Source of the DNA: Opitutales bacterium
GTDB lineage: Bacteria > Verrucomicrobiota > Verrucomicrobiia > Opitutales > UBA953
Length of the DNA stretch: 36,154 nt
NCBI GenBank assembly: GCA_017531845.1
Contig: JAFXKI010000002.1
Coordinates: 1 to 36,154, forward strand
Reading direction: 5' to 3'
Shown: positions 1,865-36,154 of the stretch, piece after piece
Position numbering within the stretch: position 1 is the stretch's first letter
Layout of the letters: each line of letters opens with the position of its first letter
Program-made: the position numbers and the translations under genes
Notes under the pieces: generated by a model
What the model saw: the letters and a program-made list of their open reading frames with translations, nothing else
The model's database searches: none
What the model was told of the DNA's origin: nothing

Positions 1865-2314
1865 ATGATGTTAGACGCAAAGAGTGTAGAGCTTGTAAAA
1901 AGCACCGTTCCCGCCCTTAAGGAAAAGGGATTGGCGATTACGCAGGTTTTTTACAAGCGAATGTTTGAGCAGAACCCGGAAGTGAAGCCGATGTTCAATA
2001 TGGCAAAGCAAGCGTCCGGCGCACAGCCGAAGGCGTTGGCGATGGCGGTTTTGGCGGCGGCGCAAAATATTGAAAATCTTGGAGCCATCGGGAACGCCGT
2101 TGCGAAAATCGCGGAAGTCCACTGTGATTGTATGGTGAAAGAAGAGCATTATCCGATTGTCGGGAAACACCTTTTGTGGGCGATAAAAGAAGTTTTGGGC
2201 GAAGCGGCGACAAAGGAAATTATCGATGCTTGGGCAAAAGCCTATGATGTAATCGCCCGCGTCTTTATCGATGTCGAAAAGGGCGTTTACGCCAAGCGCG
2301 GTATTTTAGTATAA
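1865..2314 (+). CDS. Single-domain bacterial globin (flavohemoglobin-type globin domain)
   Basis: This 149-residue protein is entirely a globin domain of the flavohemoglobin/Vitreoscilla class. It shows the B-helix VFYKRMFEQNPEVKPMFN, the QxxALA segment, and the F-helix AEVHCDCMVKEEHYPIVG with the proximal haem His, followed by KHLLWAIKEVLG. The FAD- and NAD-binding reductase domains of Hmp are absent, so it needs a separate reductase. Such globins bind O2 and NO and act in NO dioxygenation or oxygen delivery. The divergent NsrR-like regulator points to NO detoxification. Two ATGs (1865, 1868) are possible, and there is no Shine-Dalgarno sequence. A strong terminator follows at 2341-2371. Confidence 0.88.
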   Translation: MMLDAKSVELVKSTVPALKEKGLAITQVFYKRMFEQNPEVKPMFNMAKQASGAQPKALAMAVLAAAQNIENLGAIGNAVAKIAEVHCDCMVKEEHYPIVGKHLLWAIKEVLGEAATKEIIDAWAKAYDVIARVFIDVEKGVYAKRGILV

Positions 2315-2340
2315 AATCGATAAAAATTTTTATTCCACTC

Positions 2341-2371
2341 AAAGCGTTCCCTACAACGGGAACGCTTTTTT
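2341..2371 (+). terminator. Rho-independent terminator after the globin gene, made of an inverted CGTTCCC pair
   Basis: AAAGCGTTCCC (2341-2351) pairs perfectly with GGGAACGCTTT (2358-2368) around a six-base loop, followed by a T-run. The 11-bp stem is an inverted pair of the window-wide repeat, as in Neisseria and Haemophilus, where uptake sequences double as terminators. A further repeat copy lies just downstream at 2378. Confidence 0.9.
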
Positions 2372-2477
2372 AGGGGGCGTTCCCGCCGATGAATATGCAT
2401 GATCGCGTGTGTTTTTTTATGAATAAAAACTTTGCGTTCCCGCAGTTAAAAGGGCAGTATTACGGCTTCCGTTTTTT

Positions 2478-33763: not shown

Positions 33764-33774
33764 AGGAACTGAAA

Positions 33775-34593
33775 ATGAAACTGCGATTCTTCCTGTTTTT
33801 CCTCGCTCTTGCGGGAACGCCGCTCGGCACTTTTGCTGAGGAATGCGAACTGGTCGTTAAACGCGTTCGCGGCGAGTGGGCGCTTTCGCCGGAGTCGGAC
33901 GAGTCGCCGAAAGAAGCTTTTTTCAAAGCTCTGAACGAGGCTCGCCGCAAAGCGGTTGCGGAAGTTTGCGGTGAGCGCGTGTCGTCATGGGATGCCCTGA
34001 TGACGCACAATGAGCGGCAAAGCTACAGCGGAACGGTCGTTACAGGCAGTGCCGGCATTGTCCGTAGCGTAGCGGAATTGCGCCGCGGATGGATTTTCCC
34101 TGAGAAAGGCGAGGCGCAGGCGCACGAATATCCGAGTGTTTTTGTGGAGGCGGAAATCACCGTAAAAAAATCTGCGGAAAAGCCGGATCCGTCTTTTACC
34201 GCCCTCATCGAAGGCGGGAAAAATCTCTACAAAAACGGAGAGCAAGACAGGTTTTCGATTACGGTTGCGCAGGATGCGTATTTGACGGTTTTTTGGCTGA
34301 ATCATGATTTTCAGGCGGATATTATTTTCCCGGCAAACCGCTGGGAAAATAATCATATTTTGCTTCAAAAAAAATCGCCGGAAATTCCGCTTGTCTTTGA
34401 AATTTCTTCTCCCCGCGCCAAGAAAGAAGCGGGAACGCTTTTCTTTGTGCTGACCAAGCGGCATTATCCTTTTCTCAAATCAAACACCTCTCAGAATCCC
34501 GAACAAAACCGGGAACGCCTTGATGCGTGGATGGCGGCGATTCCGTTGCGGGAACGTTTTATTTACGCCATTCCGTTCACTATCGAACGATAA
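33775..34593 (+). CDS. Secreted protein with FlgT/LPP20-like N-terminus and DUF4384 domain
   Basis: The 272-residue protein starts with a Sec signal (MKLRFFLFFLALAGTPLGTF). Residues about 45-80 (SPKEAFFKALNEARRKAVAE, VCGERVSS) match the helix of FlgT/LPP20 proteins. The C-terminal half has the DUF4384 core: NLYKNGEQDRFSITVAQDAY, then LTVFWLNHDFQADIIFPANR. DUF4384 domains are often fused to or next to caspase-like proteases in bacteria. The caspase-like gene begins one base after its stop, so they are coupled. This start is one of the few with a plausible Shine-Dalgarno sequence (AGGA at -7). Four octamers lie in the gene. Confidence 0.75.
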   Translation: MKLRFFLFFLALAGTPLGTFAEECELVVKRVRGEWALSPESDESPKEAFFKALNEARRKAVAEVCGERVSSWDALMTHNERQSYSGTVVTGSAGIVRSVAELRRGWIFPEKGEAQAHEYPSVFVEAEITVKKSAEKPDPSFTALIEGGKNLYKNGEQDRFSITVAQDAYLTVFWLNHDFQADIIFPANRWENNHILLQKKSPEIPLVFEISSPRAKKEAGTLFFVLTKRHYPFLKSNTSQNPEQNRERLDAWMAAIPLRERFIYAIPFTIER

Positions 34594-34594
34594 A

Positions 34595-36154
34595 ATGAAA
34601 CTTGCGGAATTTTTCATCTTTTGGTTTTCCGGCGCGGTTTTTTGTGTCGCCTCGGCGGATTTTTCCCTGCGTGAGCTCGGCGACGGGAAGGCGGAAATTT
34701 CTGCCTACCGCGGGAACGCAAGTTCTCTTCTCGTTCCCGGCGAAATCGACGGAAAGCGCATTGTCAGCATAGGATCCGGCGCGTTTTTCGGAAATGCCAA
34801 GCTACGGGAAATTTCGTTTCCCGAAAATCTTTTCGAAATAAAGCCTGCGGCATTCGCACATTGTACCGCGCTTGAGCGAATAACGTTCCCGACGACATTG
34901 AAAAAAATCGGGTCCCGAGCGTTTTTTGCCTGTGAAAAATTACCGGAAATCGTTTTGCCGGAAAACTTGGAGTTACTCGGCGAAGAGGCATTCGCTTTTT
35001 GTTCCGCGTTAGAAAAACTTTCCGCGCCGCTTCAAATTGCGGAATGCGGCGAAAACGCGTTCCCGCTCACCGCCGGAGCGTTTTTTCCGAAATCGAAATT
35101 TCCGGCTTTGGAAATAGATGTCGAGGCTGCAAAAATTCTGGAACCTTCCGGGAATTTCGCTGTCGACGGAGGAGAAATTTGCCGTATATGCGTTCCCGTA
35201 AAAAACACCGGGAATGCCGATGCTTACGGGTGCCGACTCAAGGCAAGTTTGAAAACGCCGCGCGGCGGGCTTTCGTTTTCTCAAGCACTCGGAATTACCA
35301 AGATTCCCGCCGGAGAGACCGTCGTCGCGGAAATCCCCGTCGTAGCCTCCCGCTTGTTGGAGCAAGGGAATGCCGAATTTTTGCTTTTTGCGGAAGAGCC
35401 GAACGGGTTCGGTTCCGAGGAGAAAATGCTCACCGTCGAAACACGCCCGTTTGTTGCTCCGTTGTTGAAAATTGTAGATTTTTCGGTGAGCGGGCAGGGC
35501 GACTCTACGCTGAAGAAAAACGCGCCGCTGGACTTGCAGTTTTTTCTGCAAAACACAACGTCGGGAAAAGCCGAAAATGTGGAAGTCAAAATCGAATTTC
35601 CCGGGGAAATTGTTTTGCTCGACGGGAACGTTTCGCAAACTTTTGAAACGTTAAAAGGCGGCGAAGCCAAGCCTTTGGAAATTTCGCTACTTGTGCCGCG
35701 CCGCTATCGCGGGACCGCCATTCCCGTCCGCGTCAAAATTTCGGAAAAATACGGAGAATACGCCCAAAATTGGGAAACGGAATTGCGCCTCAATACGACG
35801 ATTGCGAGTGCTAAAGCGGTGTTGAAAGCTCAGCGCGACGAGCGCGAAGCGATTGAACTCGCCTCGTTTACTTCCGACGTGGACAAAAACATTCCCGTTA
35901 ATCCGCAAAACGCTTCTCGCAATCGTTTTATTGCCGTTATCGCGAATGAAAACTATCGCTTTGTACCGCCCGTTTCCTTTGCACTCAACGACGGAAAAGT
36001 TTTTTACGAATATTGCCGTAAAACCTTCGGCGTTCCCGAATCGCAGATAAAATTTTTCAAAAATGCGACTTCCGGCGAAATGAACGAAGCGCTTTCCTGG
36101 CTGGAAGCACGGGGAAAGCTCGAAAACGCCGAGCTCATTTTGTATTACTCCGGA
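34595..36154 (+). CDS. LRR-CARDB-caspase-like protein, 3' end beyond the window
   Basis: The frame is open from ATG 34595 to the last base (520 codons). After a signal peptide (about 1-20), residues 45-150 are BspA-type leucine-rich repeats with a recurring F-x-I-x-x-x-A-F pattern (IVSIGSGAFFGNAKLREISF; LKKIGSRAFFACEKLPEIVL). Residues 170-400 hold two CARDB-like beta domains. From 444 a caspase-fold p20 region begins (NRFIAVIANENY, FALNDGKVFYEYCRKTFG, ILYYSG). In caspase-like proteases YYSG is followed by HG with the catalytic His, so the window ends just before it. The upstream DUF4384 protein, one base away, is a likely partner. Activity cannot be judged. Confidence 0.75.
   Translation, partial: MKLAEFFIFWFSGAVFCVASADFSLRELGDGKAEISAYRGNASSLLVPGEIDGKRIVSIGSGAFFGNAKLREISFPENLFEIKPAAFAHCTALERITFPTTLKKIGSRAFFACEKLPEIVLPENLELLGEEAFAFCSALEKLSAPLQIAECGENAFPLTAGAFFPKSKFPALEIDVEAAKILEPSGNFAVDGGEICRICVPVKNTGNADAYGCRLKASLKTPRGGLSFSQALGITKIPAGETVVAEIPVVASRLLEQGNAEFLLFAEEPNGFGSEEKMLTVETRPFVAPLLKIVDFSVSGQGDSTLKKNAPLDLQFFLQNTTSGKAENVEVKIEFPGEIVLLDGNVSQTFETLKGGEAKPLEISLLVPRRYRGTAIPVRVKISEKYGEYAQNWETELRLNTTIASAKAVLKAQRDEREAIELASFTSDVDKNIPVNPQNASRNRFIAVIANENYRFVPPVSFALNDGKVFYEYCRKTFGVPESQIKFFKNATSGEMNEALSWLEARGKLENAELILYYSG

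Follow-up and report, generated by a model that had tools for sequence, protein, structure and literature searches.

The closest described counterparts of the element treated here are two words that mark DNA for uptake. In Neisseriaceae, the DNA uptake sequence (DUS) is read by the minor pilin ComP, and in Pasteurellaceae the proposed reader of the uptake signal sequence (USS) is PpdA/ComN, a protein of the GspH/FimT class. The element in question is the octamer CGTTCCCG (reverse complement CGGGAACG), called the word below, which was noticed in a 36,154-nucleotide stretch from an Opitutales bacterium (contig JAFXKI010000002.1 of assembly GCA_017531845.1, positions 1 to 36,154; this whole stretch is the window). 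The word is probably an independently evolved signal for the uptake of self DNA, where its role in uptake itself is what we infer. According to a 2025 article (PMC12616744), self-specific DNA uptake is known only in Neisseriaceae and Pasteurellaceae, which agrees with the original prediction that a third system would be new. Within the open-licence PMC literature (subscription papers and preprints lie outside this scope), neither the word as a motif nor an uptake sequence in Verrucomicrobiota was found, and one search had a single match, an unrelated paper in which CGGGAACG occurs once.

The word matches DUS and USS in the properties tested, save dialects, and belongs to neither by sequence. 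As in both systems, it is short and non-palindromic, it is present in thousands of copies in both orientations, in genes and between them, it forms inverted pairs in a terminator arrangement, it is common to related species, and its hosts carry a pilus and ComEC-type machinery. The DUS dialects, however, have a common CTG core (PMC3630211), whereas CGTTCCCG and CGGGAACG contain neither CTG nor CAG; this is an unrelated word with an 8-base core in another phylum. Also unlike DUS, no dialects were found and no ComP was identified in this analysis, and uptake is deduced from sequence. With USS the word shares a best receptor lead of related type, since the protein has a GspH/FimU fold. Moreover, close word pairs cluster at about 19-21 nt, as they do at 19-22 nt in Pasteurellaceae (PMC1852404). 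On the other hand, the USS core is of the AAGTGCGGT or the ACAAGCGGT type (PMC1852404, PMC2346458), and CGTTCCCG matches neither on either strand, lacks the conserved AT-rich downstream segments, and comes from an unrelated phylum.

Concerning abundance, an exact count gave 103 copies in the window (57 on the plus and 46 on the minus strand) against 1.1 expected from an independent and identically distributed base composition, just as the original prediction had it (about 103 copies in these orientations, one or two by chance). It is by far the commonest 8-mer there, ranks 2 and 3 being shifted overlaps of it, and 80 of the 103 copies lie within genes predicted by a simple caller based on open reading frames (ORFs) and codon usage. 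Their extent is as follows.

1906..36038, both strands: span of the 103 exact copies of CGTTCCCG, the first at 1906 and the last at 36031-36038

The window is contig C10 of a genome designated G000 (1,687,170 bp in 11 contigs, 95% complete). Over this whole genome, the word is present 5,192 times (2,602 + 2,590) and the reversed word, used as control, 86 times (45 + 41), an enrichment far above two-fold. The extended 10-mer GCGTTCCCGC has 1,743 copies (894 + 849, one per 968 bp) against 9 + 10 for its control. The density had been predicted to exceed that of DUS and USS; this holds for the 8-mer against published counts, but the 10-mer is comparable with the gonococcal DUS, also a 10-mer, with 1,965 copies (PMC1852404). 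The kingDUS reaches 5,918 copies in 2.4 Mb (PMC3630211).

Placement, spacing, strand and pair statistics were obtained from the window plus 14 further pieces of G000 (310,936 bp in total). This sample has 966 words, against 43.5 expected from a second-order Markov model and 30.2 when the words are masked before fitting, and the density is 2.15-3.75 per kb in each piece (21 and 54 copies in the piece C1:120-140 kb). The extended form is GCGTTCCCG[C/T], as the 5' neighbour is G in 54% of copies and the 3' neighbour C in 57% or T in 24%; the core is 8 bases long and the remaining flanks are nearly devoid of information. The predicted presence in both coding and noncoding DNA was also found, with 791 of the 966 words inside predicted genes and 175 (18.1%) touching noncoding DNA, compared with 10.8% for permuted words. 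Words occur in all six frames, with a preference for two, and their spacing is near random (coefficient of variation 0.99 over 951 gaps). They are less numerous in GC-poor 2-kb bins, roughly as composition predicts by our estimate, and these bins therefore give no information on foreign DNA.

Some of the words are arranged in convergent pairs. There are 35 such pairs within 33 bp, 25 of them intergenic, and 17 of these 25 have a run of A before and a run of T after (2.9% at control positions); divergent pairs have both tracts in 0 of 9 cases. Twenty convergent pairs lie at most 60 nt after a stop codon. Regarding the distances, 15 pairs are at 19-21 nt and four, mostly intragenic, at 8 nt. From this arrangement, close inverted pairs with A and T tracts are predicted to form terminator-like hairpins, and inverted DUS and USS pairs are described in the same arrangement after genes (PMC1852404). 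The pairs of this kind in the window, none with an assigned strand, are listed with their neighbouring genes.

15244..15280: convergent pair, A tract before and T tract after; predicted bidirectional terminator, 72 nt 3' of an RpoD-like gene
12805-15171: the RpoD-like gene, with sigma-70 domains
20494..20529: convergent pair with A and T tracts; predicted bidirectional terminator between tail-to-tail genes
18968-20467 (plus strand) and 20571-21758 (minus strand): the tail-to-tail genes flanking that pair
24197..24224: convergent pair with A and T tracts; predicted terminator, 26 nt 3' of a transporter gene
22392-24170: the transporter gene, with a sugar transporter/MFS domain
26065..26100: convergent pair followed by a T tract; predicted terminator, 35 nt 3' of the uncertain ORF 25397-26029

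G000 is a close relative of Candidatus Spyradosoma, a genus of uncultured gut bacteria placed by NCBI in Opitutia, Verrucomicrobiota, and both this placement and the DnaG relatives are in line with the Verrucomicrobiota-like chromosome that had been proposed. In a scan with the DnaG encoded in the window, the nearest named relative was the Verrucomicrobia metagenome-assembled genome (MAG) SIG76, with 94% identity, followed by Opitutales MAGs of goat and water deer rectum (78 and 77%) and Candidatus Spyradosoma merdigallinarum (71%). These four named relatives have 75, 70, 63 and 53 words in 22.0, 21.9, 21.9 and 9.0 kb, where about 3-4 are expected, whereas the next relatives, outside the genus, have none in 8.7 kb (L067) and four in 21.8 kb (L068; 1.8 expected). 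Of eight genomes of the genus (G000 to G007), six contain 5,192-6,550 copies, G001 contains 1,362 and G007 546, with 75-145 for the reversed controls. The six word-rich genomes (G000 and G002-G006) thus carry one word per 260-368 bp, genome sizes being rounded. The GC content of their sampled pieces goes from 51 to 65%, so the word has persisted through wide changes in base composition. The 10-mer is found in 332-2,359 copies in seven of the genomes and in 135 in G007; it is not dense outside the genus, with a maximum of 66 copies among 30 non-genus relatives and of 111 among 383 non-genus Verrucomicrobiota. Among the genomes sampled, the word at high density is confined to Candidatus Spyradosoma and its close relatives, and it runs through the whole genus.

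In some non-genus genomes the 10-mer, though low in number, exceeds its reversed control several-fold; G065, for instance, has 51 copies against 8. Many genomes of g48, the Verrucomicrobiota genus to which G065 and G098 belong, have 40-55 copies of GCGTTCCCGC against 8-24 reversed, a mild excess. In the sister genus represented by G008, a one-base dialect, CGTACCCG, was considered on the basis of 35 copies against 4.5 expected in 80 kb. It was rejected because GCGTACCCG gave 20/17 against 25/14 for the control across the whole G008 genome, and in none of 79 family genomes was GCGTACCCG clearly over its control (the largest count was in G001, 41 against 31). Apart from this, a 20-kb piece (L055) of G011, from the same family, is rich in words of the AGGGTGCC/CACCCTC type, with 34 and 30 copies in 22.8 kb when taken with L056, probably due to repetitive genes.

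Comparison between species indicates that the word is maintained at the DNA level. At the places aligned with G003, 82 of 88 words of G000 are intact; the figures are 24 of 30 for G005, 22 of 31 for G006 and 11 of 17 for G002, while matched 8-mers are intact in 60, 26, 22 and 30%, respectively. For the remaining species the samples are tiny (2 of 6 in G004, 1 of 5 in G001, 0 of 8 in G007). Fourfold-degenerate sites were compared inside and outside words wherever the first two codon bases agreed. Identity was 135/139 inside against 3199/4101 outside for the G003 set (21 genes, with L063), 120/136 against 2351/4145 for the G005 set (26 genes, with L064 and L065), 80/91 against 1813/3176 for G006 (18 genes), and 43/46 against 1033/1993 for the G002 set (11 genes, with L066), that is, 88-97% inside words and 52-78% outside. 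Hence, something acts on the DNA word beyond the protein alone. Furthermore, where G000 and G003 align without gaps, 30 words occur in just one of the two genomes, and 21 of these differ by a single base (gapped places were left uncounted), which points to point mutation.

In G001 and G007, by contrast with the word-rich genomes, the word looks to have decayed into one-mismatch forms. For each excess perfect word, G001 has 2.01 and G007 has 3.92 excess one-mismatch forms, compared with 0.39-0.87 across the six word-rich genomes. The one-mismatch surplus is 1.70-fold and 1.74-fold; of 200 permuted words, 1 and 4, respectively, come as high. The ratio in four genomes of other genera is 0.85, 0.87, 0.91 and 1.36 (the last, intermediate, in G008 and from local repeats), and these controls uphold the surplus. 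A tree built from five proteins, for which G008 was a partial outgroup, puts G001 and G007 side by side (support 0.905) and the word-rich G004 with them (support 1.0). The simplest history would be a single gain at the base of the genus, with maintenance later lost in the G001/G007 line. A different G007 word, CCACCAACCC, was also considered as uptake-like (133 copies in 164 kb, 132 with full flanks), but it lies in clustered near-tandem arrays and was discarded. These arrays consist of CACCACCAACCC-type units (pieces L036-L038, L045, L046 and L199-L208), and they were absent from the examined pieces of G000, G001, G002, G004 and G008.

Genes for machinery that an uptake signal would use were found in all genomes of the genus. 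The ComEC competence domain is present in 8/8 of them and in 35/38 relatives, PilT above the cut-off in 8/8 and 34/38, DprA in 8/8 and 22/23, and pilin genes in 8/8; this set of competence and pilus genes permits competence. In G000 a gene cluster has the order PilB/GspE-like, PilT, PilB/GspE-like, GspF/PilC, and there are seven pilin-type genes with a PF07963 start, one of them inside the window. G001 and G007 have 10 and 11 pilin-type genes, compared with seven in each of the other six genomes, and their extra pilins include a four-gene GspG/H/I/J-like cluster (G001:C36 55.3-56.8 kb, L145; G007:C62 5.4-7.3 kb, L158). The rate of evolution within the genus is much higher for ComEC than for the motor proteins of the pilus: between G000 and G004 identity is 32% for ComEC (loci L151, L194 and L215-L220), 76% for PilB and 82% for PilT.

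As for the reader of the word, 12 proteins were compared by counting the alignment columns changed in G001 and G007 yet kept in the word-rich G004, and by setting this number against the other two pairings. One protein, C8 (2/1/1), was excluded from the pooled control, as true orthologues from G003, G005 and G006 were missing among the loci used. The minor pilin C11c (G000:C11, about 282.1-282.8 kb, outside the window) has 12 such columns, whereas the other two pairings have 3 and 4; on re-alignment, 13 positions were obtained where the first comparison had given 12. Its model shows a GspH/FimU fold (VIA-align). C11c is tentatively the best receptor candidate among the proteins compared, and its DNA binding is predicted. 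The candidate of second choice is the pilin encoded in the window.

8239..8652, minus strand: small orphan type IV pilin, 137 aa, with a pilin fold (VIA-align)

This pilin is full length in 8/8 genomes of the genus and in 0/30 others, where the longest match covers 102 of 138 positions. ComP was not among the matches listed in its structure comparison. Used by itself, Foldseek had no match with an E value of 0.001 or lower for the model of either pilin, and both folds rest on VIA-align. Within 8239-10592, the pilin gene has a MatE transporter gene on one side and, on the other, overlapping genes that encode a zinc deaminase and a protein of beta-CASP metallo-beta-lactamase fold.

The explanation that competes best is that a nucleoid, repair or regulatory protein within the cell binds the word, which is kept by selection on this binding and has no role in uptake. 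DNA-level maintenance needs a reader and leaves its place of action unspecified, and near-random spacing allows many readers. However, such binding by itself predicts neither the terminator-like pairs nor the whole DUS/USS-like profile, and the sole protein signal found, a weak one, points to a surface pilin; this explanation is improbable.

We also regard it as improbable that the word is coupled to a DNA methyltransferase, whether orphan or linked to defence, in the manner of HIP1 and unrelated to uptake. HIP1-type words are not known to form terminator pairs. The precedent is nonetheless a real one, as HIP1 (GCGATCGC), an octamer that is extremely frequent throughout cyanobacterial genomes, is linked to orphan methyltransferases (PMC4390886). 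Unlike the palindromic HIP1, the word is not self-complementary, which upholds the argument made from this in the original prediction, and here it belongs to one genus. Regarding correlation with a methyltransferase target, the search covered two families only, and neither tracks the word. Close orthologues of the G000 PF01555 enzyme, with 69% identity or more, occur in G002, G006 and the word-poor G007, but none of the PF01555 proteins of the word-rich G003, G004 and G005 is that close to it; PF07669 is patchy and absent from the word-rich G004.

Two further explanations can hardly be sustained. Chi and KOPS are polar relative to replication, and the word, although it is like them short, frequent, dispersed and non-palindromic and although in 5-kb bins its orientation shows a mild correlation with GC skew (rho -0.40), has no replication polarity beyond composition, since CGGGAACG lies on the G-rich strand in 54.9% of cases against 55.6% for permuted words (GC skew being a proxy for replication direction); the balance of orientations had already been held against such signals, for which totals alone are insufficient in a draft assembly and the skew test carries the point. 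A mobile or terminator repeat spread through the genome would fit the 25 intergenic convergent pairs, but close convergent pairs comprise only 70 of the 966 copies (7.2%), most words are single intragenic copies with unrelated, unconserved flanks, and one-sided words mostly differ by one base.

Enrichment, lack of polarity, maintenance, terminator-like pairs and competence genes thus agree with the properties of a DNA-uptake signal, as first proposed, and a self-DNA uptake signal is the preferred explanation. Several points nevertheless weigh against it. On the coding strand CGGGAACG outnumbers CGTTCCCG by 462 to 329 (58%, compared with 53% for permuted words), although uneven orientation within genes is likewise described for DUS and USS (PMC2346458). 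ComEC, DprA and PilT are also present in word-less relatives and in G001 and G007, so the presence of these genes does not explain the word. The C11c lead is one of 12 proteins, with an uncorrected p of 0.007, and the window pilin does not track word strength in the same test (2/1/4); the word-rich G004 holds one of its most divergent copies (46%). The decay in G001 and G007 is read from a Markov expectation and samples of 219 and 164 kb, no dialect was confirmed in sister genera, the other genera being sampled by small pieces, and all the genomes compared are draft MAG-type assemblies.

If the word is an uptake signal, its predicted reader is a protein of the type IV pilus that would bind it on double-stranded DNA outside the cell, and cells would then favour DNA of the same clade for uptake and recombination. 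Such a bias, acting again and again on alleles that bear the word, could keep the copies intact, inverted pairs may have been co-opted as terminators, and G001 and G007 would be losing the word. The reader would be a minor pilin, with the GspH/FimU-fold C11c as best candidate among those compared. Taken as a whole, there is about an even chance that this is a third self-DNA uptake language, evolved independently in the non-Proteobacterial Verrucomicrobiota, read by a GspH/FimU-type minor pilin, with about 5,000 copies per genome, partly used as terminators and now being lost in two species following a change in its reader.

If confirmed, the word would be the third known uptake signal and the first outside Neisseriaceae and Pasteurellaceae. 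An independent case in another phylum would mean that uptake languages evolve repeatedly, and would suggest that GspH/FimU-class pilins recur as DNA readers. The genus would also provide a comparative system in which a word has been gained, kept and lost, where models of uptake bias and molecular drive could be tested. For the organisms themselves, known here from draft genomes alone, these findings suggest sequence-directed gene exchange among gut bacteria.

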